From the IMG/VR virus record IMGVR_UViG_3300013306_000017, positions 1 to 64,000 of that record: a stretch of 64,000 nucleotides of DNA; one strand, written 5' to 3'. This DNA is from a virus. Shown in pieces: positions 3,747 through 60,067 of the stretch. A program made the position numbers and the translations under genes. Positions within the stretch are counted from its first letter, which is position 1; each line of letters opens with the position of its first letter. The notes under the pieces were generated by a model, which did no database searches, had not been told where the DNA came from, and saw nothing but the letters and a program-made list of their open reading frames with translations.

Positions 3747-3905
3747 ATGCCAGAAAAATCTACCACAGGCGAAAGCCATGCGCATCTCTGCGACCGCTGC
3801 GGCCAGCGGTTTGAATGTACGGACGTGAATGACGCTGAATTTGAGTTTGCAACGTGCCCTGAATGTAAAACGAGCAAGAAAAAGAAAACACCAAAGAATG
3901 CCTAA
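3747..3905 (+). CDS. 52-aa zinc-ribbon protein upstream of the methyltransferase
   Basis: ATG at 3747 with AAAGGA about 9 nt upstream. Two knuckles are visible, CDRCGQRF and CPECKT, followed by a Lys-rich tail (SKKKKTPKNA). Its TAA (3903-3905) overlaps the ATG of the methyltransferase (3898), which signals translational coupling. Small zinc ribbons with basic tails usually bind nucleic acid or a partner protein. A role as a helper or regulator of the adjacent methyltransferase is inference from the overlap. Confidence 0.7.
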   Translation: MPEKSTTGESHAHLCDRCGQRFECTDVNDAEFEFATCPECKTSKKKKTPKNA

Positions 3906-6510
3906 AAAGAGAATTATTCGCGCAGTCGATTTGTTCGCCGGCGCTGGTGGCGCCTCAACGGGCCTTGTTCGCGCTTGCCGCGAGCTCGGGCTTGAGTTGG
4001 ACTTGCTGGCCATCAATCATTGGCCGGTCGCTGTCGATACGCATAGTGTGAACCATCCCAACGTAGTTCACTTATGTGAATCGATCGCAGCGGTTGATCC
4101 GTTGCAAAAGGAATTTGTCGATAAACGAACGGGGAAGGTGTTTAAGAATACCGGACGCCTGGATATCTTACTTGCGGGCCCGGAGTGTACCCACTTTTCA
4201 ACTGCGCGCGGTGGGCGTCCGGTTAACCCGCAATCCCGCGCGAGTGCCTGGCATATTCTTAAATGGGCGCAGGAACTCTATATCGATGTACTACTGATTG
4301 AGAACGTACCGGAGTGGGAAATGTGGGGCCCATGCGGTGCCAATTTCAAACCGTTGAAGAGCAAGAAGGGTGAAACGTTTCAAGCTTACCTTCAGGCTAT
4401 TCGCTCTCTCGGATATAGCCGCGTTGAATTCAGAAAGTTGAACTCAGCTAACTATGGTGATGCAACCACGCGAAACCGTCTGTTTCTGTTTGCCATGCGA
4501 AACAGTTCGTCAATTCCGTGGCCCAGTCAGAGTCATGCTAAGCGCGCTTTTCTTACTGGCGCAGGTCCCGTTGCCGAATGGACTACCGCTCGCGATAAGG
4601 TGATTGACTGGACCGTCAAGGGCAAGAACATTTTCGAGCGGCCAAAACCTCTGCGTCCCGCCACAATGTTGCGCATCATCGCCGGCCTGGAAAAGTTTGG
4701 CGGGCCAAGACTCAAACCATTCTTAGCGCAGCTTCGAATCAACTGCACACGCGCCTACGCAGCGGAGGAAATCTGGAATTACTCGGAGTTGATTGCATGG
4801 GCACTTCCTAACTCGCCTGGGATGGCAGTCCTGTTGTGTTTCTTCCTAATGTGCCGAGTCGCGCGAATGGCTGACATGTTTCTGCGTGAGCAGGCACTTG
4901 AGAGCGCGGTGGGAACTGCGCTTGAGCCCTTCTTAATCGTTCTGCGCAACAACGTCACAGCGATGTCGGTGAACAAGCCTTTATCGACGGTCGTGGGGGC
5001 GGGTAAGCATCACGGGCTGGTCGATGCAACGTTGGTGGCGATGGAACATGGAGGTCGCGAACTAGATCCGGAACAGCCTTTGCCGACCGTCACCACGGCC
5101 AAAGGCGGAGCATTTGGAGTTGCCGAGGCTTGCTTGGTTCACACGACGCACGACGGCGACCGCAAACCACATGCTGTTGATGGTCCTGTCCCGACTATTA
5201 CCGGCGCTCACCGCGGCGAGCTTGGAGTTGCGGAGGCCTTTGTACTTCAACAGCAATCGGGCGGTGCTCCGCGTTCTGTTCAAGACCCACTGCCGACCGT
5301 GGCCACTGGCGGCGCCATCTCGTTGGTAGCACCCGAACTGCAAAAGGCAAATGGAAATGACGCCGTCATAGTTGATGCTGGCTTTGGGGAGGGTGAGGGC
5401 AGCACAACTCGCCGAGGGTTAGGAGCTTATTCGCCAGATCAGCCATTGGGCGTCGTGCCAGGCTCAAATCGCTTTGCGATCGCTGAGCCGGTCCTGATTC
5501 CGTTTTACAGTGAAGGCGAGGGCCAGGAACCGCGCAGCCACAGCGTTGATGAGCCCGTTCCCACGATTCCAGCAACCGGCAATGGGAAATTTGCTGTGGC
5601 GGAACCATTCATAGTTCCCCAGAGCCGCTTCGATGATGAGGAACCGCGCATTGATTCTGTCGACCAACCCCTGCGCACGATAACCGGAACAGGGGGCCGC
5701 TGCTTCGGCCTCGCAGAGCCTTCCCTAATCAAATACTACGGCACCGCCACTGGCGCTCAGTCTGTTGACGAGCCGTTGGATACGCTGACCGCAAAGGAAC
5801 GTCATGCTTTGGTCGAGCCAATAATTATTGAGGCAGGCGGTCCGACTGGCCAGGGGCGTAATGCGAACAGCGTTGATGAGCCACTGACAACCGTACTGAC
5901 TGAAAACCACAAAGCGTTAGTCGAACCTCTCATTCTCTCCGCGGGTGGCCCCGAAGTGGGCGCGCGGCCAGTAAGTCAACCTCTTAACACCGTGCTTACC
6001 CGCGACCACATGGCCCTGGCTGAGACGTTCATTTCGCCACAGCGAAGCAATTCCGCGCCCCATAGTGTTGACGAGCCTTTGCCGACCCTCACCGGAAGCA
6101 ATCACATGGCGGTAATAGATCCGTTTGTGATAGCGAACAATACGAACAACATTGCGAAGTCCGTAGATGAGCCGGTGCCGACTGTAACAGGGGCAAACCG
6201 TTTGGGATTTGTGGATACTCAGATAGTCAAAGCTTCGAATGGCTCAATGGTCAAATTCAAAGGACCGAGAATTGAAGCTCCAGTTATTGATGGTTTCGTT
6301 CTGGTTATTCTCTTCCGCATGTTGCGTTCGCGTGAACTGGCACGAGCGATGTCATTTCCTGATGACTATGAGTTCACAGGCACCCAAGAAAATGTGGTGA
6401 AGCAAATCGGCAACGCGTGGGCGGGCGAGCTCGCTAAGGCGCTATGCAAGGCTGCGCTTCAGAGCATTGTTAAGACTCCTAAACCAAGGCGTCAGGAGAA
6501 AGCGGCGTGA
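3898..6510 (+). CDS. DNA (cytosine-5) methyltransferase with expanded repeat target domain
   Basis: 870 residues from the ATG at 3898, chosen because it overlaps the zinc-ribbon stop and places the SAM-binding motif at the N-terminus; the longer open frame lacks support. Visible motifs: I, DLFAGAGGASTG; IV, AGPECTHFS, with the catalytic Cys in a PEC variant of PPC; VI, LLIENVPEW; VIII, GDATTRNRLF; IX/X, ARAMSFPDDY ... VKQIGNAW. Between VIII and IX, about 420 residues consist of 12 degenerate repeats with the core SVDEPLPTVTG, each followed by 'HALVEPFI'-like strands. This region should form the target-recognition domain. Probable role: self-methylation of phage DNA against host restriction. 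Confidence 0.92.
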   Translation: MPKKRIIRAVDLFAGAGGASTGLVRACRELGLELDLLAINHWPVAVDTHSVNHPNVVHLCESIAAVDPLQKEFVDKRTGKVFKNTGRLDILLAGPECTHFSTARGGRPVNPQSRASAWHILKWAQELYIDVLLIENVPEWEMWGPCGANFKPLKSKKGETFQAYLQAIRSLGYSRVEFRKLNSANYGDATTRNRLFLFAMRNSSSIPWPSQSHAKRAFLTGAGPVAEWTTARDKVIDWTVKGKNIFERPKPLRPATMLRIIAGLEKFGGPRLKPFLAQLRINCTRAYAAEEIWNYSELIAWALPNSPGMAVLLCFFLMCRVARMADMFLREQALESAVGTALEPFLIVLRNNVTAMSVNKPLSTVVGAGKHHGLVDATLVAMEHGGRELDPEQPLPTVTTAKGGAFGVAEACLVHTTHDGDRKPHAVDGPVPTITGAHRGELGVAEAFVLQQQSGGAPRSVQDPLPTVATGGAISLVAPELQKANGNDAVIVDAGFGEGEGSTTRRGLGAYSPDQPLGVVPGSNRFAIAEPVLIPFYSEGEGQEPRSHSVDEPVPTIPATGNGKFAVAEPFIVPQSRFDDEEPRIDSVDQPLRTITGTGGRCFGLAEPSLIKYYGTATGAQSVDEPLDTLTAKERHALVEPIIIEAGGPTGQGRNANSVDEPLTTVLTENHKALVEPLILSAGGPEVGARPVSQPLNTVLTRDHMALAETFISPQRSNSAPHSVDEPLPTLTGSNHMAVIDPFVIANNTNNIAKSVDEPVPTVTGANRLGFVDTQIVKASNGSMVKFKGPRIEAPVIDGFVLVILFRMLRSRELARAMSFPDDYEFTGTQENVVKQIGNAWAGELAKALCKAALQSIVKTPKPRRQEKAA
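4963..6230 (+). repeat. Twelve protein-level repeats in the methyltransferase target domain
   Basis: About 12 units of roughly 30-45 residues, each built on 'S-V-D-E-P-L-P-T-V-T' and 'A-x-V-E-P-F-I'. The DNA is diverged between units, so this is an old expansion kept by selection rather than a fresh tandem duplication. The fifth unit (PDQPLGVVPG) is the most degenerate. Similar short repeats occur in other phage cytosine methyltransferases as far as I recall; the number here seems large. Confidence 0.85.
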
Positions 6511-15600: not shown

Positions 15601-16455
15601 ACCATTCAACTGTTTTCACGCCATAGAAGCCGTTCTTGTCTGAGAGTTTAATGCGGGCCTCTCTCAATGCTTCATGGTAAGCGCGGGCCTGATATCGGAC
15701 GCGAAAAGGAACTTCTGAAATGTCAGAAGCCGCGTAAACAGGTACCCGACAAATGCGGGCATCGTGGTGAGTCCAGAACCATTCCGGCAGCGGCAGGTTT
15801 TCCCATTCAACGCCATCGACCAGATAGGTCTTTATGGCGTATCGGCTTTTTTTTCCGGGGCCTGTGCCTCAAACATCACGTACTTGAAGAGTTTGCGCAG
15901 TACTTCGCGGCTGCGCGCGCGGAGGAAATCCGAAGCATGCCGGCAATCAGAACCTGCAGCATGGCAGCATTCAAAATCACGCGGCTCAGTGATCGGAACG
16001 GTCTTGCCCTGGTGCGTGAGGTTCCATTCCAGAATAACCCGGGCCAGCGATTCAGCCATGAAGGTACATTCAGCGGCTTGGGCCAGTAACCAGCTTTCAT
16101 CTTCAGCCGGAATCAAATCTTCCAGAGCCTCAATGCCCACCGGCGCCGCGGCTTTGTCCGCGATGTCCTTTAGTTGCCGCTCGCGCTCTTTCTTGGTGAG
16201 CTTCTTCTTCTTTCTGCCGCCAGGCAATGCCGCAGCCGGTTCCTCAAGCGAGACCGGGCCCGTCTGATGCTTCAGCGCGAGCCGGATGCTGGCCACCGTG
16301 GACTTGAAGATTTGCCGCGCGGAATGGTCGGCATCAATGAGAAACTTCTCCGTAACGATGTTGGGATCAAGCAACATCTTGAGAACGTCATCCGGAGTGT
16401 CACCAAAAGAAAGCTCAGCCGGAAATGGCGGGCTTTTGAGTTTTGAGATATCCAT
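15599..16455 (-). CDS. Tail assembly chaperone GT fusion made by -1 frameshift
   Basis: The G frame (16455 down to 15847) continues by a -1 shift into an 82-residue frame that starts Ser-Arg-Tyr and ends GVKTVEW before TAA (15601-15599). The total would be 285 residues. The downstream segment has no plausible start codon of its own, has good coding character (for example 'WFWTHHDARICRVPVY') and lies directly before the tape measure gene, exactly where lambda-like phages place T. In lambda, gpG and gpGT chaperone the tape measure during tail assembly. Confidence 0.8.
15832..16455 (-). CDS. Tail assembly chaperone G (zero-frame product)
   Basis: 207 residues between the tail-tube gene and the tape measure gene, the usual place for this chaperone. 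The sequence is helical and charged with a Lys-rich middle (GGRKKKKLTKKERERQ) and ends APEKKADTP. The last codons contain the slippery run, so this is the product of ribosomes that do not shift. Function follows from position and from the frameshift arrangement; the sequence itself is not strongly diagnostic. Confidence 0.8.
   Translation of the reverse strand: MDISKLKSPPFPAELSFGDTPDDVLKMLLDPNIVTEKFLIDADHSARQIFKSTVASIRLALKHQTGPVSLEEPAAALPGGRKKKKLTKKERERQLKDIADKAAAPVGIEALEDLIPAEDESWLLAQAAECTFMAESLARVILEWNLTHQGKTVPITEPRDFECCHAAGSDCRHASDFLRARSREVLRKLFKYVMFEAQAPEKKADTP
15845..15855 (-). promoter_or_regulatory. -1 ribosomal frameshift slippery site
   Basis: Eight A on the minus strand (15854-15847) preceded by G and followed by GCC; zero-frame codons are GAA AAA AAA GCC. 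The heptamer A-AAA-AAA lets both tRNAs re-pair after a one-base slip. The shifted frame reads AAA then AGC CGA TAC and stays open to 15599, while the zero frame stops at 15832-15834. A similar A-rich slip site is well known in bacterial and phage frameshifting. Confidence 0.85.
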
Positions 16456-35889: not shown

Positions 35890-35919
35890 AAGCTACCACG
35901 CTGCGCTGATTTAAGTTTT
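35890..35919 (-). promoter_or_regulatory. Late-type promoter copy, lysis operon
   Basis: AAAACTTAAA (35919-35910), 12 nt, then GGTAGCTT with -10 TAGCTT (35895-35890) in an extended TG context. Expected start of transcription about 65 nt before the muramidase ATG. Confidence 0.8.
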
Positions 35920-35994
35920 GAGGCTCTACGACCGCCTGTGAATGACATGCAAAAGCTCTTGCACGGGTAGGGTTAGCGGACTAAAACTGTAGGC

Positions 35995-36024
35995 TTGCGC
36001 TGACTGTACTGAATGGTCTATATA
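35995..36024 (+). promoter_or_regulatory. Sigma70-like promoter for the small RNA candidate
   Basis: TTGCGC (35995-36000), 18 nt spacer, TATATA (36019-36024), on the plus strand, opposite to all surrounding genes. Expected transcription start near 36031. The -35 matches TTGACA at four of six positions and the -10 matches TATAAT at five. Confidence 0.5.
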
Positions 36025-36030
36025 ACGGGA

Positions 36031-36133
36031 ATCCGATGGCTGGTGAATCCTTCCATCAAGTGGTTACTGGGGTGAGGACAGTAACCGCAAAAAGCGGCGG
36101 GCTCGTGAGTGGGCTCGCCGCTTCTATTTTATT
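36031..36133 (+). ncRNA. Candidate phage small RNA, copy 1
   Basis: About 100 nt between a plus-strand promoter and a terminator. It contains the 34-nt element 36053-36086, shared with 59971-60004 on the other strand. Within it GGTTACTG (36062-36069) pairs with CAGTAACC (36079-36086) around a 9-nt loop GGGTGAGGA. A GC-rich stem (36094-36102 with 36113-36121) and TTCTATTTTATT follow. A 39-codon ORF from 36036 reads through the terminator stem and would lack its stop in a terminated RNA, so coding is unlikely. The 3' part is antisense to the terminase end. Function unknown. Confidence 0.55.
36089..36133. terminator. Bidirectional intrinsic terminator after the large terminase
   Basis: GCGGCGGGC (36094-36102) pairs with GCTCGCCGC (36113-36121), 9 bp with one G-U on the plus strand, loop of 10. 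The minus-strand side ends in TTTTT (36093-36089) and the plus-strand side in TTCTATTTTATT. It ends the leftward transcript just after the terminase stop, and the rightward small RNA. Confidence 0.85.
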
Positions 36134-37641
36134 CGCCAAGCGCTTTCCTGGGTGATTGAGATTGGGCCAATGGTTGGCAACTCATGGCCCGGGGCTGCAT
36201 AAGCGAGGTTAGTCGCATCGGCATCATCAGGGCTGCGCTTAATGCGTTTCTTTGTCACGTCTTTCGGTTCAACGACTCGCAGAGCCCGGCCGTCGGGCTT
36301 CCACTTCGGCGCCATGAACTGTCGACGCAGTTCAGCTAGTGAGTCCACCGACAGAGCAGAGAAGTCAACGCGGTTTTCCTCCGCTCGATCGGCGAGGGCA
36401 AACCATAGTTCACTACGACGATTTGGAAATCCCTCTTGGTCCAGGGCTTTCGATGCGGAGTTGATATCGATAAAGTTCCAACCATCATCACGCGCGGGAT
36501 CAACGACACCGCCCTGGAAGTCATCCACTTTCACCAGCACGCGCTTACCTTCAATGCCGCATTGTTGCCCAACCTGGGTTGCTTTCTCCTTAAGGTACAT
36601 CAATGTGCGGGTCGTATTCCACCCGTTATACGATTCGTGAGAAAGAGAAACAGGGCCACGCCGCACATGAATCGAAGTTGAGTCATCACCAAAGCGTGCA
36701 CGGTCACAACCAATCTCCGGAGGATGTTTCTCTGATTCCTTCCATAACGCGGGCTTACGCTCGATCGCGCTTAACCACATTGCCTCGGACCATACTGAAT
36801 CTGTCGCCTGTGACGGCCAGCGACCAAGGACCCGACTCTCAAACAGCGGGCCCGGACGATACCACTGCGGATGGATACTTTTCTCTTTACAGAAATCCTC
36901 GGGTGGCCAACAGAAATCGCCGGCCTTCTTTTCCTTCGCCTCGATCGGAGTGCACCACTTCATGCGCTCCAGGACCCAGGACAAACTGATTGCTTTGGGG
37001 AACGGCTTTGGCAGACCTCTCAGTTCAGCGGCCAGGTTCGGATGCTCAAGCGCTGAGATCGTGATGACCTTCCATCCGCCTGAGAGTTCTTCCTGGTATG
37101 CTTTCGAGCTCGTATCCGTCGGGTTCATGATGGCCAGCCATCGGTTGCCCGGGCCTGACGACAACATGCCCTCAGCTGCTGTCCAGAACTGTTCCTCGAT
37201 ACCCACAGCCTCTTCAAAGACAATTAACAGGTTTTCTTCGTGGTCACCCTGGAATGAGTTAGCGTCTTTGGCTGTATAGCCGGCAGCGAAGTGTGACGGG
37301 TCGAACTCGCCGCCCTGCAGGAATGATTCGATACGTGCGGCCTTCGGCAGCATATTCCGGCCGCGACGCTGTAATCGCACTTCTTTCCAGGTCAGGTCAA
37401 CAACCTGGTTCTTTGTCGGTGCCGTTGTTTTGGTGATTGATGGACTGAAGCAGTCGTAATGCCAACTGACCAGCCCGCCGGCGAGATGAGTCTTACCTAC
37501 CGAGTGAGATGCTTTAACAAACGTCTTGGCATTCTCCACTACCGAGCGGGCAACCTCCCGTTGCTTCGCCCACCAGGTAACTCCTAAGACGTTTTCTGCG
37601 TAACCTTCTGGATCTCTCGCATACTTTGCGAACTCAGCCAC
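36124..37641 (-). CDS. Terminase large subunit
   Basis: 505 residues from a GTG at 37641 that overlaps the upstream stop by 8 nt; a longer frame to 37746 would overlap by 113 nt. ATPase motifs: Walker A in KASHSVGKTHLAGG, Walker B in NLLIVFEEAVGI. Nuclease motif: GCDRARFGDDSTSI. It powers DNA packaging and cuts the concatemer. It ends in a bidirectional terminator. The adjacent upstream gene is the probable small subunit. Confidence 0.92.
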   Translation of the reverse strand: MAEFAKYARDPEGYAENVLGVTWWAKQREVARSVVENAKTFVKASHSVGKTHLAGGLVSWHYDCFSPSITKTTAPTKNQVVDLTWKEVRLQRRGRNMLPKAARIESFLQGGEFDPSHFAAGYTAKDANSFQGDHEENLLIVFEEAVGIEEQFWTAAEGMLSSGPGNRWLAIMNPTDTSSKAYQEELSGGWKVITISALEHPNLAAELRGLPKPFPKAISLSWVLERMKWCTPIEAKEKKAGDFCWPPEDFCKEKSIHPQWYRPGPLFESRVLGRWPSQATDSVWSEAMWLSAIERKPALWKESEKHPPEIGCDRARFGDDSTSIHVRRGPVSLSHESYNGWNTTRTLMYLKEKATQVGQQCGIEGKRVLVKVDDFQGGVVDPARDDGWNFIDINSASKALDQEGFPNRRSELWFALADRAEENRVDFSALSVDSLAELRRQFMAPKWKPDGRALRVVEPKDVTKKRIKRSPDDADATNLAYAAPGHELPTIGPISITQESAWRIK

Positions 37642-38398: not shown

Positions 38399-39541
38399 TT
38401 AGCCTTCATGGGCTCTCTGCCCGTTAGAGGGGTATTTCGCGTTGGCTGCAAGGACGTGAGTTCGCAGGTGAAGCGCAATCGCTCTCATGAAAAGCGGCGG
38501 GACACTGTTACCCATCTGTGCCCACGCGACGCCATATTTGTCCGGGAATTCAGCTTCATCGGGAAACGAAGCCAGCCGCTTTGCCTCGGCAAGTGTTATC
38601 GGCCGCGGCTCGCTCCAATGAACGAAGGTTGCAAAACCGTGCGTCGTCGCCGTGCTCATCATTGTCCGCGCCGGCTTGAATGGGTGAAGCTTTACCAGGT
38701 CACTGAAATGTGAGCGTTTGCCGTTCAGCCTCTCTTTCACATCGGCCAAACTGCCGCCCGGGACAATCCGATCCCAATAGTGCGCGTATGTTTTCGAGAG
38801 AGCGCCCACCGGCTCAACCCGGCAACCTGCAATCGCATCCCTCACACACCGCGGCTGCGACTGCGGCCGCGGGTGAGATGCACGACGCTTCAGATCCTTC
38901 CGCACTCCGATGATGATAGTGCGCTCACGCGACTGTGGCACATCGAAATACATCGCGTTCATCAGTCGCGCCGATACGTCATAACCACAGGCCTTCAGTT
39001 CGCGCAGCATCTCGGCGAAGATAAGACACATTTTGCCCTTCACCAGCCCCGAGACGTTCTCCATTACAAACGCTTTTGGCTTGAGGCCTTTTACCAGCCG
39101 CACGTATTCGAGAAACAAACCGTTGCGCGCGTCTATCAGATTTCGCTTGCCCGCCATACTGAAGCCCTGACAGGGCGGCGAACCATCCAGAACATCAAGC
39201 TCACCCGGTTCAAGGCCACTCAGCATTAGAACTTTCTTGACTGTAAGCTTGCTGATATCGCCGACGTGGAGCGGCACTCGAGGAAATAGCTTGTGAAAAG
39301 TATCGGCGGCTTTGGGGTTCCATTCCACTGCCAGCAATTCGCGGAATCCCGCCATGCTGTAACCGAGCGATGATCCACCGGCGCCTGCAAAGGTGCTGAT
39401 TACCGTCGGCGCATTCCTTTGACGGCGCGCCAAATGAGATTTCCATGCCAGGGCCAACAGGTCCGCATACTCATTGCGCGAACTGGTGATGGCACTTCGG
39501 GCACTCAATGAGGTGGACCTTGTCCGCCGCGGTCTCGTCAT
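38399..39541 (-). CDS. DNA (cytosine-5) methyltransferase, second
   Basis: Dcm-type enzyme of normal size. Motifs: I, FAGAGGSSLGY; IV, GSPPCQGFSMAG with the catalytic Cys; VI, AFVMENVSGL; VIII, QSRERTIIIGVR; X, QMGNSVPP. The start is uncertain: the frame overlaps the ParB-like gene, and the ATG at 39541 is used here, with a TTG at 39457 as an alternative nearer the overlap end. It is distinct from the repeat-bearing enzyme at 3898, so the phage encodes two cytosine methyltransferases, probably against restriction. Confidence 0.9.
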   Translation of the reverse strand: MTRPRRTRSTSLSARSAITSSRNEYADLLALAWKSHLARRQRNAPTVISTFAGAGGSSLGYSMAGFRELLAVEWNPKAADTFHKLFPRVPLHVGDISKLTVKKVLMLSGLEPGELDVLDGSPPCQGFSMAGKRNLIDARNGLFLEYVRLVKGLKPKAFVMENVSGLVKGKMCLIFAEMLRELKACGYDVSARLMNAMYFDVPQSRERTIIIGVRKDLKRRASHPRPQSQPRCVRDAIAGCRVEPVGALSKTYAHYWDRIVPGGSLADVKERLNGKRSHFSDLVKLHPFKPARTMMSTATTHGFATFVHWSEPRPITLAEAKRLASFPDEAEFPDKYGVAWAQMGNSVPPLFMRAIALHLRTHVLAANAKYPSNGQRAHEG

Positions 39542-40001
39542 ATTCGGGGAACTCCAACCCCTCCAAATCGACTGAGTTTTCACCAAGGATTTGTTTTAGT
39601 TCACCTGGCTCAAAGCCCAGGAACGCCGGATCAAACTTCACCTTCATCTGCTGCGAGATGGCTAGAACATTGTCTCGTAGTAATTCAGGATCGAAATGAG
39701 AGAGTCTGGCTAATTGGTTGGCAGCGATGCGGTATCCGGCTCGGTGGGCGCCCTTAAGGTTCGAATACTTGCACTCAATGTCGGTCTTGCCTTCAAGCTT
39801 CATCGCCTGCTTGATGCCGTGACCGGCAATGCACATGTTGTTGCGGTCAATCAGGATGGGTTCCTGTTGGCCATAAAGCCGAATGCTGGCCCGCAATAAT
39901 ACTATTTGAGATTCCGGGTGCAGGTTTTCATTGCTCGGATCGTCGAGGACCTCGTCAATCGAGAGCAAGACATAATCATCAAGATAGACTCGTTTCTTCA
40001 C
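39471..40001 (-). CDS. ParB-like nuclease-domain protein with zinc ribbon
   Basis: 176 residues. The N-terminal 'LLSIDEVLDDPSNENLHPES' and 'IRLYGQQEPILIDRNN ... IAGHG' are the ParB/sulfiredoxin fold motif (G-x-x-E/Q-P-I, then I-x-G-H). The C-terminus ends with a CPKCHH ribbon. Phages often pair this type with a methyltransferase, as here, where its end overlaps the methyltransferase frame. Probably a DNA-binding or modification-targeting partner. Confidence 0.8.
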   Translation of the reverse strand: MKKRVYLDDYVLLSIDEVLDDPSNENLHPESQIVLLRASIRLYGQQEPILIDRNNMCIAGHGIKQAMKLEGKTDIECKYSNLKGAHRAGYRIAANQLARLSHFDPELLRDNVLAISQQMKVKFDPAFLGFEPGELKQILGENSVDLEGLEFPEYDETAADKVHLIECPKCHHQFAQ

Positions 40002-41500: not shown

Positions 41501-41521
41501 CAGACACCCTTTAGCGCTCCC

Positions 41522-44072: not shown

Positions 44073-45758
44073 TCAGTCCCTGAAGGTGCGGATAGCTTTT
44101 CCAAATGCAGAGCTGGTTAATGAGCGTCCAGTGCGCTCAGCGATTTCAGCCGAATCTAATTCCCCTGCCTCCGCAATCGCCGTCAACATTCCGCTTTCAT
44201 ATGCGGGCAGCTTCTGAATCCAGTGGGTCAATGCCGCCTGACCTGACGCCGGCGCCGGTGTGTAATCGGCACCCAAACACTCGCTTCCAGCGGTGGTGAG
44301 AACTAACCCGCCAGACACATCATTGGCGTAACCCATCTCAACGAGCTTATTTGCTTTCTTGGGGTAGTTACTGCTCTTGATTGAGAATCCGCACAGAGCA
44401 AACAACTGCGAGCGTGTAGTGGGAACAGGTGAGCGGTCCGCAAGTTTGCGTAACAGGGTCAATTCAAATTTGTCGAGGTCGCTGTTGTCCGGCTCGGGTG
44501 ATGGGATGCGCCGCGCTGGAGGCGGTGACTCAATGCGACGTACTGGAGGGGTTGCCGGGCCGGGAGTGAGGGCCACACGGCCAGGCGTATGACCGTTGGT
44601 GCTCACCTTTGCCAACGCTTCACGAATCCCAGCCGCAATGCCGTGCAATTTTTCGGCTTGAGTGGCTACCGCTACAAGGACCTTTTCAGCACGCGCAAGC
44701 TGGCCATCTTTCAGGGAGAACCTTTCAACTGTCCTAACAACCTCAGTTGGTTTCGCCGGCGCGGGCGCTTTCGTCGCAAGTTGCCTTTCGAGGTCCCTGA
44801 TCTTCCGTTGGAGTTCTTTCGGATTTTCAGTTCTGGCCTTCTCGATAGTGGCAGCCATGCGCTCAGACAGCCGCTTCAAGTCAACCGATGCCAATACCTT
44901 TGGTTCAACCGGACGCTCACCAACCTTCGGCGTTTTTCGCGAGTCGAAGGTTTCAGCCATCCGGAACTGAACAACCTTTGAAATCTCCAGCCAGGCAGGT
45001 GAATAGAACACGCCTTCACCGGCTTTGAGCGTCGGCAGCTGCGAGACGATTGTTTCAAGTTCATCCTTCTTGCGCAGAAAGACCTTGAACCAGCGCTCGA
45101 CGGCATCGAAATCCTGCGCACCGACCACGCGCATGGCCACCAACGTCTCACACATGTTCATCACGCGCTTATCGAGGGTGGCAGGGCTCTGAGTAATGAG
45201 GCTGATGCCCAGGCCGCTGGTTCTACCCTGCTTGATCACGCGGCGAACTAACGACAGCATCATCGATTCCGAAATGGTATCGCCCTTCTGAACCTTGAAT
45301 TGCTTTTCCTGTGGGGCAAACTGATCCGCCTCATCCAGAAACAGGTGCATGGGCTCCCGGCAATGCTTGTAGAGGTAGTCACAGAAGTCGTAAGTGAAGC
45401 GGAACCGCTGGCCATCGCTGAGGTGTTTAGTGGATATGATCGCCGAGATGCGTTCATTCAGAATGAGCTCGGCCACCAGTGCGCCGGCTGTGTACTCAAG
45501 AGGGGCGTCCTGGTGCGATCCGCCCAGAATGGTAACTGGGAGACCTTCGGACTTACCATCAGCCGACGAACGCAACCCCCACCAATCATCTTTGGGATCG
45601 AGCACAACGATTTGTTGCTTGGCCTTGAGCATTTCTTCGGCCATCACCGCGGCGGTCGTGCTCTTACCGGAGCCACGGATTCCGACAATGCAGAAGGTTC
45701 CTGTTACCGCATCAATCGGCAAAGTCAGGTCGTCCGAAATCTTTAATCGCTTCGTCAT
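44073..45758 (-). CDS. HerA/FtsK-like ATPase
   Basis: 561 residues. Walker A GIRGSGKST (26-34), Walker B MHLFLDEADQF, and 'SLVRRVIKQGRTSGLGISLI' then TQSPATLDK, the Q-S/P sensor. These are the marks of HerA/DUF87 DNA-translocating ATPases. A coiled coil and a Pro-rich linker lead to a C-terminal winged-helix-like domain (SDLDKFELTLLRKLADRSPV, SAFGKAIRTFRD). It is the last gene before attP. It may pump or process DNA ends with a nuclease partner not obvious here. Confidence 0.85.
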   Translation of the reverse strand: MTKRLKISDDLTLPIDAVTGTFCIVGIRGSGKSTTAAVMAEEMLKAKQQIVVLDPKDDWWGLRSSADGKSEGLPVTILGGSHQDAPLEYTAGALVAELILNERISAIISTKHLSDGQRFRFTYDFCDYLYKHCREPMHLFLDEADQFAPQEKQFKVQKGDTISESMMLSLVRRVIKQGRTSGLGISLITQSPATLDKRVMNMCETLVAMRVVGAQDFDAVERWFKVFLRKKDELETIVSQLPTLKAGEGVFYSPAWLEISKVVQFRMAETFDSRKTPKVGERPVEPKVLASVDLKRLSERMAATIEKARTENPKELQRKIRDLERQLATKAPAPAKPTEVVRTVERFSLKDGQLARAEKVLVAVATQAEKLHGIAAGIREALAKVSTNGHTPGRVALTPGPATPPVRRIESPPPARRIPSPEPDNSDLDKFELTLLRKLADRSPVPTTRSQLFALCGFSIKSSNYPKKANKLVEMGYANDVSGGLVLTTAGSECLGADYTPAPASGQAALTHWIQKLPAYESGMLTAIAEAGELDSAEIAERTGRSLTSSAFGKAIRTFRD

Positions 45759-55533: not shown

Positions 55534-55726
55534 CCGCCACCTCTTGAACTCTTTCGCCGGTTTCGAGATTGATTAGGACAAGTTGCGAACCGCACGCTAC
55601 GCACGTCTCGCGTTCAGGTCCTGCCATGCAGCAGCATTCGTCCCACGGGTTCAGATGCCCAACGCAGTTGCAGAACGGAGTACTGACGCAGATACGCTGC
55701 GTATGGTCATTGATTCCTGGTGGCAT
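55526..55726 (-). CDS. Small Cys-rich protein (66 aa)
   Basis: Eight cysteines in 66 residues, with FCNCVG, ECCCMAG and CVACGSQL groups. Its start touches the stop of the helicase-methyltransferase gene (55726). Likely metal-binding; function unknown. Confidence 0.58.
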   Translation of the reverse strand: MPPGINDHTQRICVSTPFCNCVGHLNPWDECCCMAGPERETCVACGSQLVLINLETGERVQEVAGA

Positions 55727-58281
55727 TAAGCTACCGCCTCCTGCGTCAATGGTTTTTCATCCATCAGGTCAAACAAAGTCGGTGCCGTCGCTTCGGTCTC
55801 AGCCTCAGAGCAATAGCGCGCGCCGTCTTGGAAGTAACGATCGCCAAGTTCTATTCCGATACCGAACCGGCCAGCCCTAATCGCGCAGTACGGAACCGTG
55901 AAGATTCCCGCAAAGCAATCCAGAACAATATCGCCGCGGTTCGAATAGAGGTTGATGGTCCGTTCAACGATATCGAACGGAAGCGGGCAGGTATGGTTGA
56001 CCTGTTCGCGCCGGCTCTGTGAAGAATTCAAACCGCGCATCATGTTCACGTCATCCCAAACCCAAGTGTTATTTGTTTCGGGCGGCTCATAGAAGAATGA
56101 CGCCGGCAGCATTCCGCGTTGCTCCAAATCCTCAAGCCGCGCGACGTGGGCTTCGAAGTCGTAATCCTGTTTGGCCCGCAGCAGGTTGAGAAGGAACTGA
56201 ACCTGCGCCTCTGGCGTTGAGGGAACTGCGACGTTCCCGTTGCTGCGCCAGAAGGCATGCGCATCAATCTGCCAACGAGCGCGGCTGTATTCCGACTTCT
56301 CGCGCGTGACGGGTTCATCGGCCCGGGCGGTTGTCATCAATGTTGGTGCTTTGCGAAACAGAAGAAGGTATTCAGGCAGGCCGCAACCCATCTTGCTGGC
56401 GTCCTTCGTCATCTCCGTCCAGCCCAGCCGATACGTTGAACTGTTTTCACGAACGACGTCGGTGGTAATCGTGCGCCGGCCCTCGTAGAGGAACCCATGT
56501 TTCTTGAAAGCGGCCACAGTGAGGTCGCTGAACTCATCAACTTCCATCAATCCGGATTTGGTCTGATGGCTGTAAAGAATCCGGTCCTTGACGTGGATTG
56601 CGGCAACGCGGCCAGGCTTCAAAACACGGAGCAACTCAGGAATGAGGAAATCCATCTGCGCGAAGAATCCGTCATTACCGTCGTTGTGTCCGAAATCTTC
56701 ATAGTTCGTGGTGTATTCGTAATGGTCAGAAAACGGGATTGAAGTGTGAATCAGGCCAACTGAATCATCAGCGATGTTGGCCATCTCCAAAACACAGTCG
56801 TTGTTGATGGCGCGGAACCGTTCGCCGGAGACCTGAACGCGTTCAACGCCAATCTTTCGCTTCAGTTCTTCGTTGACCAGGCTATGGTCCAGGCCGTATT
56901 GCCGGATGATTCCGCGCATCCGTTTGACGAGCTGGTCATGCTGCTCCCACTTCTGGCGCAAGACATCCGCGATCGGCTGTTCGCTTTCGGCATAGATGAT
57001 ATGGACATCGACCGGATGCTGTTGTTGGAAACGCTGTGTCCGGTGAATCGCCTGAATGAAATCTTCAAACCGGTAGTCAGTGCCGACGAAGATGTTTGAG
57101 TGACAGTGATATTGGAAATTGCAGCCGCTTCCGCTCAGTTCCGGCTTGGTGGCCAACCTCGAGATCTTCCCCCGCGCGAAGTCAATTACCCGCTGCTCGC
57201 GAAGCTCAAGGTCCATTGAGCCGTAGACAGACAACGAGTCAGGAATATCTTTTTCAATCGCCCGCCGTTCATCTTCCAGCGTGTGCCACAGCAACCAATT
57301 CTTATCCGGCGCCGCCTCAATGATTTCCTTTGCCTTCGCCACTCGCGACGGCAAGGTTGCTCGCTTCTCGCGCGCCGATTGACTGACACCCTTGACCGCG
57401 CTGATTAGAAGTTTGCGCTGGCCGAAGTTGTCAACGTGCTTGAATGCTCGAGTGTGATCAACAGGTACCCGATGCCAGTGCACATTCAGTTCCGGCAATT
57501 CATAACCGGTGGCGTCATAACCCATGTCGGCCGGGCTGTAGAGGAACAGCGCCCAGGTGCTCACCCATAACCAGAAGTCCGCTTCATGCTGAGGATGAAT
57601 CTGCAGGTCGCCGGCCTGTGCGGTATTGCGTTTGAACCAACGCGTTAACGCCTGGCCGCTATCCATCACGCCGAGGAAGTCAGCGTAGTAAATGATTTCC
57701 TTGTAACTATTCGGGCAAGGCGTGGCCGTGGCGACGAACCGATAAGGAACCTGCGTGAACAGCGAACGGAATACTTGTGTGGTCTTAGAACCGAAACTCC
57801 GGAGCACGCTGCCCTCATCCAGGCTCACGCCAATCAAGTTATGTTTCGCCGGCGTAATGCCGCCGTCGCGCAAGCGTTCATAGTTCGTGATGACAAACGG
57901 AGTATCAGCAGCGGCGAGCGTTTCATCGCTGTAAACGTACTTCCAACGGACGCCGAGGCGCGGTCCATCTTCATCAATGAACTGATGGCGCACTCCCAGC
58001 GGAGCGACGACAAGAAACTTGGAATCAGGATTTGCGGTTGTCAGAATGCGCGCTATCTCGGTTTCGATTTGCGTCTTACCCAGTCCGAACGAAAGTGCTA
58101 ACAAGGCGCGTTCCTCACGCAGGGCCCAGGCAATCACATCTCGCTGATGAGGCTTGGTCGACGGATGAACTTCAAGGTCGTTCCCGAGCGCAGACGGCCG
58201 TTCGCTCGCACCCTTAATCTTCCCCTCAAGGAAGGCCAGGTACGCATGGCGATTGTCCTTTTGTGTTTGCGCTACGCCCAT
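55726..58281 (-). CDS. Helicase-DNA methyltransferase fusion (DarB-like)
   Basis: 851 residues. Residues 40-440 are a superfamily 2 helicase: Walker A LSFGLGKT (63-70), motif II LDEGS, motif III TATP, motif VI QAIHRTQRF. Residues 490-830 are a beta-class amino-methyltransferase: catalytic motif HTSIPFSDHYEY (TSIPF 513-517, a TSPPY/DPPY variant), then the SAM-binding DCFAGIFTVPYCAIRAG near 790. The order helicase then methyltransferase is the reverse of P1 DarB. Combining translocation with methylation suggests protection of phage DNA against restriction, or against other DNA-targeting defence. Confidence 0.88.
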   Translation of the reverse strand: MGVAQTQKDNRHAYLAFLEGKIKGASERPSALGNDLEVHPSTKPHQRDVIAWALREERALLALSFGLGKTQIETEIARILTTANPDSKFLVVAPLGVRHQFIDEDGPRLGVRWKYVYSDETLAAADTPFVITNYERLRDGGITPAKHNLIGVSLDEGSVLRSFGSKTTQVFRSLFTQVPYRFVATATPCPNSYKEIIYYADFLGVMDSGQALTRWFKRNTAQAGDLQIHPQHEADFWLWVSTWALFLYSPADMGYDATGYELPELNVHWHRVPVDHTRAFKHVDNFGQRKLLISAVKGVSQSAREKRATLPSRVAKAKEIIEAAPDKNWLLWHTLEDERRAIEKDIPDSLSVYGSMDLELREQRVIDFARGKISRLATKPELSGSGCNFQYHCHSNIFVGTDYRFEDFIQAIHRTQRFQQQHPVDVHIIYAESEQPIADVLRQKWEQHDQLVKRMRGIIRQYGLDHSLVNEELKRKIGVERVQVSGERFRAINNDCVLEMANIADDSVGLIHTSIPFSDHYEYTTNYEDFGHNDGNDGFFAQMDFLIPELLRVLKPGRVAAIHVKDRILYSHQTKSGLMEVDEFSDLTVAAFKKHGFLYEGRRTITTDVVRENSSTYRLGWTEMTKDASKMGCGLPEYLLLFRKAPTLMTTARADEPVTREKSEYSRARWQIDAHAFWRSNGNVAVPSTPEAQVQFLLNLLRAKQDYDFEAHVARLEDLEQRGMLPASFFYEPPETNNTWVWDDVNMMRGLNSSQSRREQVNHTCPLPFDIVERTINLYSNRGDIVLDCFAGIFTVPYCAIRAGRFGIGIELGDRYFQDGARYCSEAETEATAPTLFDLMDEKPLTQEAVA

Positions 58282-59765: not shown

Positions 59766-59905
59766 TTTGTTTTAAGTAAGCCCTGGAGTTGAAAGTTAAG
59801 GCCCGGTTGTTAACGGCGTCTGCCGCCAGCGCCCAAGTCCATAGGGAACGTCATTACCGGGAACGTTTCACCACTGAGCAGGTGTCGCTATTCCAATCTG
59901 TTAAA

Positions 59906-60004
59906 GCGCGGGCGAATCTGCGTGAGACTCCTTAAAGATTCAGAGACTCCAGATATCGCCCGCGCATCGTGGCTACTGTCCTCACCCCAGCAACCACTTG
60001 ATGG
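59906..60004 (-). ncRNA. Candidate phage small RNA, copy 2, with long hairpin
   Basis: In the 302-bp gap 59766-60067. On the minus strand a 34-nt element (60004-59971) equals copy 1 at 36053-36086 except for two A-to-G changes that turn A-U pairs into G-U pairs. Downstream a 60-nt hairpin follows: 10 bp GCGCGGGCGA/TCGCCCGCGC, a bulge, 5 bp ATCTG/CAGAT, then GAGTCTC against GAGTCTC with one mismatch, and a 12-nt loop (59965-59906), then TTTAAC. A second CGTGTCCAT lies 40 nt upstream. Function unknown. The rest of the gap shows only a GGGAACGT direct repeat near 59850. Confidence 0.5.
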
Positions 60005-60067
60005 ACACGCGGGAAGCCCTCGTGCACTTCCTTGCTATCAATGGACACGTATCCAAGCTTGAAAGAA

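Follow-up and report, generated by a model that had tools for sequence, protein, structure and literature searches.

Sigma54-dependent Qrr sRNAs are known (PMC10162802, PMC3352281), GlmY is known as a decoy for RapZ (PMC7073468), and phages also encode sRNAs (PMC12197685), named examples being AgvB, VpdS, PreS and DicF (PMC12197685, PMC4104026). The element described here resembles these phage sRNAs and anti-sRNAs in being a small, probably trans-acting and Hfq-linked RNA on a temperate phage. It differs from those listed in the review, which are either specific to phages or imitate targets of host sRNAs, in copying an sRNA family of the host. Our search of the open-paper literature found no sRNA description for Blastocatellia or acidobacteria and no report of the present family. 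The window analysed, 64,000 nucleotides, is most of a 67,024-base IMG/VR virus record. To our knowledge, regulatory RNA in Acidobacteriota is close to uncharted.

The repeated hairpin and its two loci

The original prediction was a phage small RNA with two loci, built around a 34-nt sequence at 36053-36086 (+) that has a second copy at 59971-60004 (-), where two letters are changed, in each case from A to G as read in the RNA. We confirmed the repeat and found the loop GGGTGAGGA to be identical between the copies (Table 1). No inverted repeat in the window is longer than the one they form (46 nt, 85% identity), the loop 9-mer occurs in the window only in copies 1 and 2, and two 34-mers differing at two positions are not expected to arise by chance within 64 kb.

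Copy 1 folded into three clean hairpins (-50.4 kcal/mol, z -4.75, 0 of 200 shuffles as good), with a 10-bp SL2 stem (36060-36088) in place of the 8 bp claimed. The SL1 apex is GGUGAAUCC, as in many cellular copies of the family described below, and TCCATCAAG, the conserved flank, forms the 3' side of the SL1 hairpin (36035-36057), which is missing from copy 2. The full intrinsic terminator proposed 3' of copy 1 is real (36092-36123, 14 pairs), and SL3 is the only strong terminator in its region. As for the proposed promoter, its position matches that in cellular copies: it ends 10-11 nt before SL1, a spacing comparable to that of TTGCCA-17-TATAGT in copies such as L035, L057 and L061. The match to consensus is only fair, however, and no promoter passing a 9-of-12 scan was found near the element at copy 1 or copy 2.

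The fold of copy 2 (z -5.52) has SL2 in common with copy 1, preceded by an unrelated 5' hairpin and followed by a long stem rich in G and C; SL1 is lost, there is no T-tail, and scanning found no promoter. This copy may be a remnant, or it may form a hairpin as part of an mRNA. The claim of antisense orientation applies to copy 1, which lies between the terminase gene and the muramidase endolysin gene and is antisense to both, but not to copy 2, which lies in sense in a 3' UTR between a recombination-module gene (phrog_3657) and the replication initiator. Likewise, of the two proposed loci, copy 1 is strongly supported as an sRNA gene, since it matches a family that comprises about 100 cellular loci, shows covariation and has promoters and terminators, while copy 2, lacking SL1, a recognisable promoter and a T-tail, is not equivalent.

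Table 1. Positions in the window of the two copies and their parts
Feature	Position	Strand	Basis or remark
sRNA gene copy 1, full length, three hairpins	36028..36134	+	cmsearch with R1; fold
Promoter-like TTGCGC - 18 nt - TATATA	35995..36024	+	read from sequence, below consensus-scan threshold
SL1: GATGG-CU-GG-UGAAU-CC-UU-CCATC	36035..36057	+	fold; alignment with cellular copies
SL2: 10-bp stem, loop GGGTGAGGA at 36070-36078	36060..36088	+	fold; covariation
SL3: intrinsic terminator, T-rich tail	36092..36131	+	terminator scan; fold
Copy 2, incomplete: SL2 and GC-rich stem kept	59896..60038	-	cmsearch; fold
SL2 of copy 2, loop 59979-59987	59969..59997	-	carries the G-U pair of all aligned cellular copies
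Long GC-rich hairpin GCGCGGGCGA/TCGCCCGCGC, then TTTAAC	59906..59965	-	sequence; cmsearch; fold

A Blastocatellia sRNA family

The search pattern GGYYRYTGGGGTGAGGACARYRRCC, in which inner stem pairs may wobble, was run on 84,980 bacterial and archaeal genomes (GTDB contigs). It gave 90 matches, against a chance expectation of about 0.1 by our own estimate, and all fell in Acidobacteriota of the Blastocatellia kind (record names Pyrinomonadaceae, Pyrinomonas, Blastocatellia, Chloracidobacterium or Acidobacteria/Acidobacteriota). The 15-nt core, searched in 100 genomes of the order, had 104 exact matches and the reversed pattern none. When aligned, the cellular loci are genes of about 105 nt with promoter, SL1, SL2 and terminator in the same register, SL1 being variable, SL2 bearing the loop core GGUGAGGA and SL3 being an intrinsic terminator; the RNA is predicted to start near GGGGCAAGAGA.

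From 43 of these cellular copies (type A, with SL1 before SL2) and no window or viral sequence we built a covariance model, R1. With cmsearch it matched copy 1 over its whole length (75.7 bits, E 2.4e-17, model positions 1-116 of 116) and copy 2 more weakly (42.6 bits, E 8.8e-9). The loop GGUGAGGA on a paired SL2 stem is present in both copies; SL1 with a GGUGAAUCC-like apical loop is present in copy 1 and not in copy 2, and is variable in divergent cellular copies. R1 matches were found in 83 of 145 Blastocatellia genomes in a class search and in 4 of 159 genomes of a phylum sample, both counts being lower bounds given the strict filters applied; all four of the latter recur in the class search, with none elsewhere in the phylum sample. 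The original prediction knew no described element with this sequence, and we too found none: Rfam 15 gave nothing at gathering threshold in the window, and in eight cellular loci no match covered the element even at E values up to 5. Its view of the element as a phage one has to be replaced, as this is a Blastocatellia family of which only one other IMG/VR viral contig was found to be a carrier. Family membership, structure, covariation, lineage distribution and host promoter motifs are all established here at the level of sequence.

Genomes hold from one to about a dozen copies, a count that includes matches to SL2 alone, and the weakest of these may be fortuitous. Type A1 copies have the leader GGGGCAAGA and a sigma54-like promoter; sigma70-like promoters stand at many of the remaining type A copies. 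Type B has TTGACA/TAAAAT promoters and SL2 near the 5' end; a GCUGAAUGC hairpin comes next, then CCAACC and a terminator (L030, L041, L044, L049, L086, L097 and others, several in Chloracidobacterium sp. UBA6041). SL2 seems to be a module common to different sRNAs. In two loci of MAG ES-bin-189 (L027:2838-2862 and L034:6328-6352) SL2 is enclosed in a longer stem, GGTGGCGGTT...GACCGCCA, and neither SL1 nor a terminator is present; tRNAs and a below-threshold match to a group I intron are also found in L027. In many A1 copies the terminator loop UCCCAC could pair with GUGGGGC of the leader, a possibility lost in the phage copies.

Structure is conserved at the RNA level

Because the first pattern could bias the stem letters, weaker R1 matches from divergent genomes were added. 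Their SL2 closing pairs (CUG/CAG, CCG/CGG, ACC/GGU, UAG/CUG or AUG/CAU) surround an unchanged GGUGAGGA. The SL2 alignment was gapless and not fitted to a model, and omitted L130, L138 and the second match in L017, whose loops were shifted or whose homology was doubtful. Among its 24 distinct sequences 97.9% of cells were paired, with two-sided changes in 8 of the 10 pairs, so that the stem, predicted to stay unbroken in relatives, has indeed been re-paired. The covariation score was 0.62, against 0.28 for shuffled alignments (0 of 500 as high), and the signal was lost when the partner strand was slid. Covariation was also seen in SL3.

Beside this covariation of divergent lineages the two A-to-G changes are minor. 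They had been offered as a pointer to a small RNA, but it is copy 2 that has the usual host letters: its G-U pair is present in 43 of 43 aligned cellular copies, and copy 1 is the deviant, changed to A-U at that pair and also without the host-type SL3 loop letters.

The same evidence bears on an explanation at the DNA level, namely a site with dyad symmetry at which a protein binds, replication starts or recombination takes place. The 34-bp copies are inverted and flank the late genes, and the replication initiator adjoins copy 2, as such an element might have it. Yet the dyad of copy 2 is broken at two DNA positions where RNA pairing is kept through G-U, and compensatory changes occur in the cellular family, which also has promoters and terminators. 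A DNA element is therefore largely refuted and, in our judgement, highly improbable.

Host promoters, helper proteins and neighbouring genes

At -63 to -65 from SL2 the motif GGCAY-N5-TTGC stands in each of the 43 A1 copies, but in none of 41 other copies and in no reversed control. GG-N10-GC is the core of sigma54 promoters. In L047, L054 and L094 an overlapping TATATT is lost and GG-N10-GC kept, and in divergent lineages the motif is near the canonical TGGCAC-N5-TTGCT and sigma70 hexamers are missing; a canonical TGGC-type -24/-12 motif is present in 11 divergent loci. Phage copy 1 has no sigma54 motif and a sigma70-like sequence instead, so it would escape sigma54 control of the A1 type. 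Sigma70-like promoters are also found at many dispersed host copies.

RpoN and Hfq are each encoded by 14 of 15 carrier genomes and CsrA by one, a distribution that fits a sigma54-linked sRNA of the Hfq type and not a Csr sponge. About 220 nt 5' of the A1 copies lies glmM (32 of the 36 with enough flank, against 0 of 34 other copies), in the gene order cdaA-ybbR-glmM-sRNA (L012, L016, L072, L095 and about 30 others; ybbR was assigned from its position and appearance alone). The sigma54-type A1 sRNAs are thus adjoined by c-di-AMP and amino-sugar genes. As a general rule the glmM linkage fails, divergent lineages having other neighbours, and the glmS leaders of eight hosts held no conserved complement to the SL2 loop. 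For these two reasons we read the linkage as synteny and not as function.

The phage and its probable host

The window encodes a major head protein, portal, terminase, tail proteins, integrase, RecE-like exonuclease and replication initiator, a gene set that indicates a tailed phage of the temperate type. Its nearest phage contig (G001, terminase 71% identical) has neither copy, so the sRNA is not a fixed phage gene. No match over the element was found by blastn against phage records or with exact patterns in IMG/VR, where only a wobble-tolerant pattern succeeded; a shorter pattern had 20 viral matches, among which contig L114 was the sole family member. L114 has a full copy (R1 76.5 bits), an integrase, a replication-initiator-like gene and a HerA-like ATPase common to it and the window (30% identity), and by this gene content is a second phage-like element with a full copy. 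A Blastocatellia MAG (G009) holds a terminase relative with 67% identity; this and the sRNA family point to Blastocatellia (Acidobacteriota) as the probable host of the phage.

Several other features of the window were observed. The HerA/FtsK-like ATPase (window 44073-45758; L114:4040-5926), labelled terminase large subunit in PHROGs, is present besides the true terminase. Five or six minus-strand copies of CTSAAAACTTAAATC (near 41503, 35922, 32426, 26461 and 23982, with a weaker one at 16447), mostly in gaps directly before minus-strand late genes and followed after about 12-15 nt by a TGNTA- or TAN-like hexamer, look like candidate phage-specific promoters; one (35908-35927) sits between copy 1 and the endolysin gene. 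There are three DNA methyltransferase genes (3829-6510, 38399-39586 and 55726-58281), one fused to an SNF2-like helicase, and at the window edge (1-108) a 27-nt unit, GTTCGGCGTCATCAGCCACCGGAGACA, stands in four tandem copies.

The terminase gene (minus strand) ends at 36124, against SL3 of copy 1, whose complement CGCCGCTTTTTGCGG looks like a candidate terminator for the terminase mRNA. The element might then be a passenger, picked up from a host by chance and kept only since SL3 also ends that mRNA, with no RNA function. Such an origin would agree with SL3 abutting the terminase stop codon, where it would terminate both strands, with the decay of copy 2 and with the lack of both copies in the nearest phage. 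It would leave unexplained that copy 1 retains SL1, SL2, both loops, the spacing and the promoter-like sequence, that both phage copies have an intact loop on a fully paired SL2 despite differing letters, and that L114 has kept a full copy. We rank this reading third and think it quite improbable.

How the RNA might act

Membership of copy 1 in the family suggests that the phage borrowed a host regulator. Ranked first, as the most likely reading and with somewhat more confidence than doubt, is a trans-acting sRNA of the Hfq type: copy 1 would be a paralogue, carried by the phage, of such a host RNA and would have a sigma70-like promoter of its own. The presence of Hfq and absence of CsrA place this reading first. 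Against it stand the poor consensus match of the copy 1 promoter, the lack of any copy in G001 and, in copy 1, the loss of the G-U pair and of the host SL3 loop letters. Transcription, Hfq dependence, action in trans and a benefit to the phage are what we infer, as follows. A temperate-type Blastocatellia phage would have acquired a member of a large lineage-specific sRNA family, to be transcribed against the late genes from its own sigma70-like promoter and to end at the intrinsic terminator. The predicted product is an RNA of about 105 nt with two loop-bearing hairpins (SL1 apex GGUGAAUCC, SL2 loop GGUGAGGA) and the terminator hairpin, which would act in trans through the exposed SL2 loop, most probably with host Hfq. 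In infected or lysogenic cells it would add to or compete with the host copies, which are multiple and partly sigma54-controlled, and might shift the host regulon in favour of the phage.

An exposed loop that stays fixed while its stem changes freely is characteristic of a base-pairing seed or of a protein site. The 10-nt loop complement TCCTCACCCC had 38 sites in five host genomes, about 19 of them outside the sRNA loci (which were set aside by hand) against 16 for the reversed control, and none in the phage outside the element, in a test that is blind to seeds of 6-7 nt. With no clear excess, simple long antisense pairing is unsupported.

That result would also suit a protein decoy, in which SL2 is the site of a host RNA-binding protein that the sRNAs, including that of the phage, titrate; CrcZ titrates Hfq and GlmY titrates RapZ in this manner. 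A protein site would further account for the occurrence of SL2 and its loop in several RNA contexts per genome (type A and the differently built type B), for the G-U pair in all 43 aligned cellular copies, and for a loop that is fixed while stem letters vary. But CsrA, the obvious binder of GGA loops, is in just one of the 15 host genomes, no candidate protein is known, and SL2 occurs once per copy, unlike the site in known sponges, which is usually repeated. We therefore put the decoy second and hold it to be unlikely.

On a wider view, Blastocatellia may have an undescribed class-wide, sigma54- and Hfq-linked, multi-copy regulon of the Qrr kind, which temperate phages override during infection by carrying differently promoted copies of its sRNA; we offer this tentatively, as somewhat short of an even chance.

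Comparison with known systems

Found in over half of the sampled Blastocatellia genomes, the family, with its covariation, promoters and terminators, could serve as an Rfam seed and be sought by RNA-seq in members that are in culture. The element also gives a clue to which bacteria a soil phage, otherwise unassigned, infects. If the proposal is true, a phage with the host's own sRNA allows a direct test of regulatory hijacking by mimicry.

An RNA anti-CRISPR (repeat mimic, PMC10651486) was rejected because the host copies are solitary, with their own promoter and terminator, and not in arrays. CrcZ and RsmYZ sponges likewise have a purine-rich loop with GGA, and CrcZ is also sigma54-controlled, but they have many loops where the present RNA has one, and CsrA is absent in 14 of 15 hosts; a Csr/Rsm sponge is not supported, with CsrA in one of 15 genomes. 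GlmY/GlmZ of Enterobacteria are, like the A1 copies after glmM, sigma54-type sRNAs linked to amino-sugar genes; the present family has no Rfam match, and in divergent lineages glmM is not adjoining. GlmZ-like control of glmS is not supported, the eight glmS leaders showing no conserved SL2-loop complement. The Vibrio Qrr sRNAs are similar in being multi-copy and about 100 nt long, with a sigma54-type promoter (here in the A1 subtype), conserved-loop hairpins, a terminator and Hfq in the hosts. They differ in that the present family has no Rfam sequence match, belongs to a different phylum, has no known target of the luxO or luxR type and does not have the sigma54-type promoter on all copies. 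The kind of mechanism is thus not new; what is new here is an sRNA family with a phage-carried copy.
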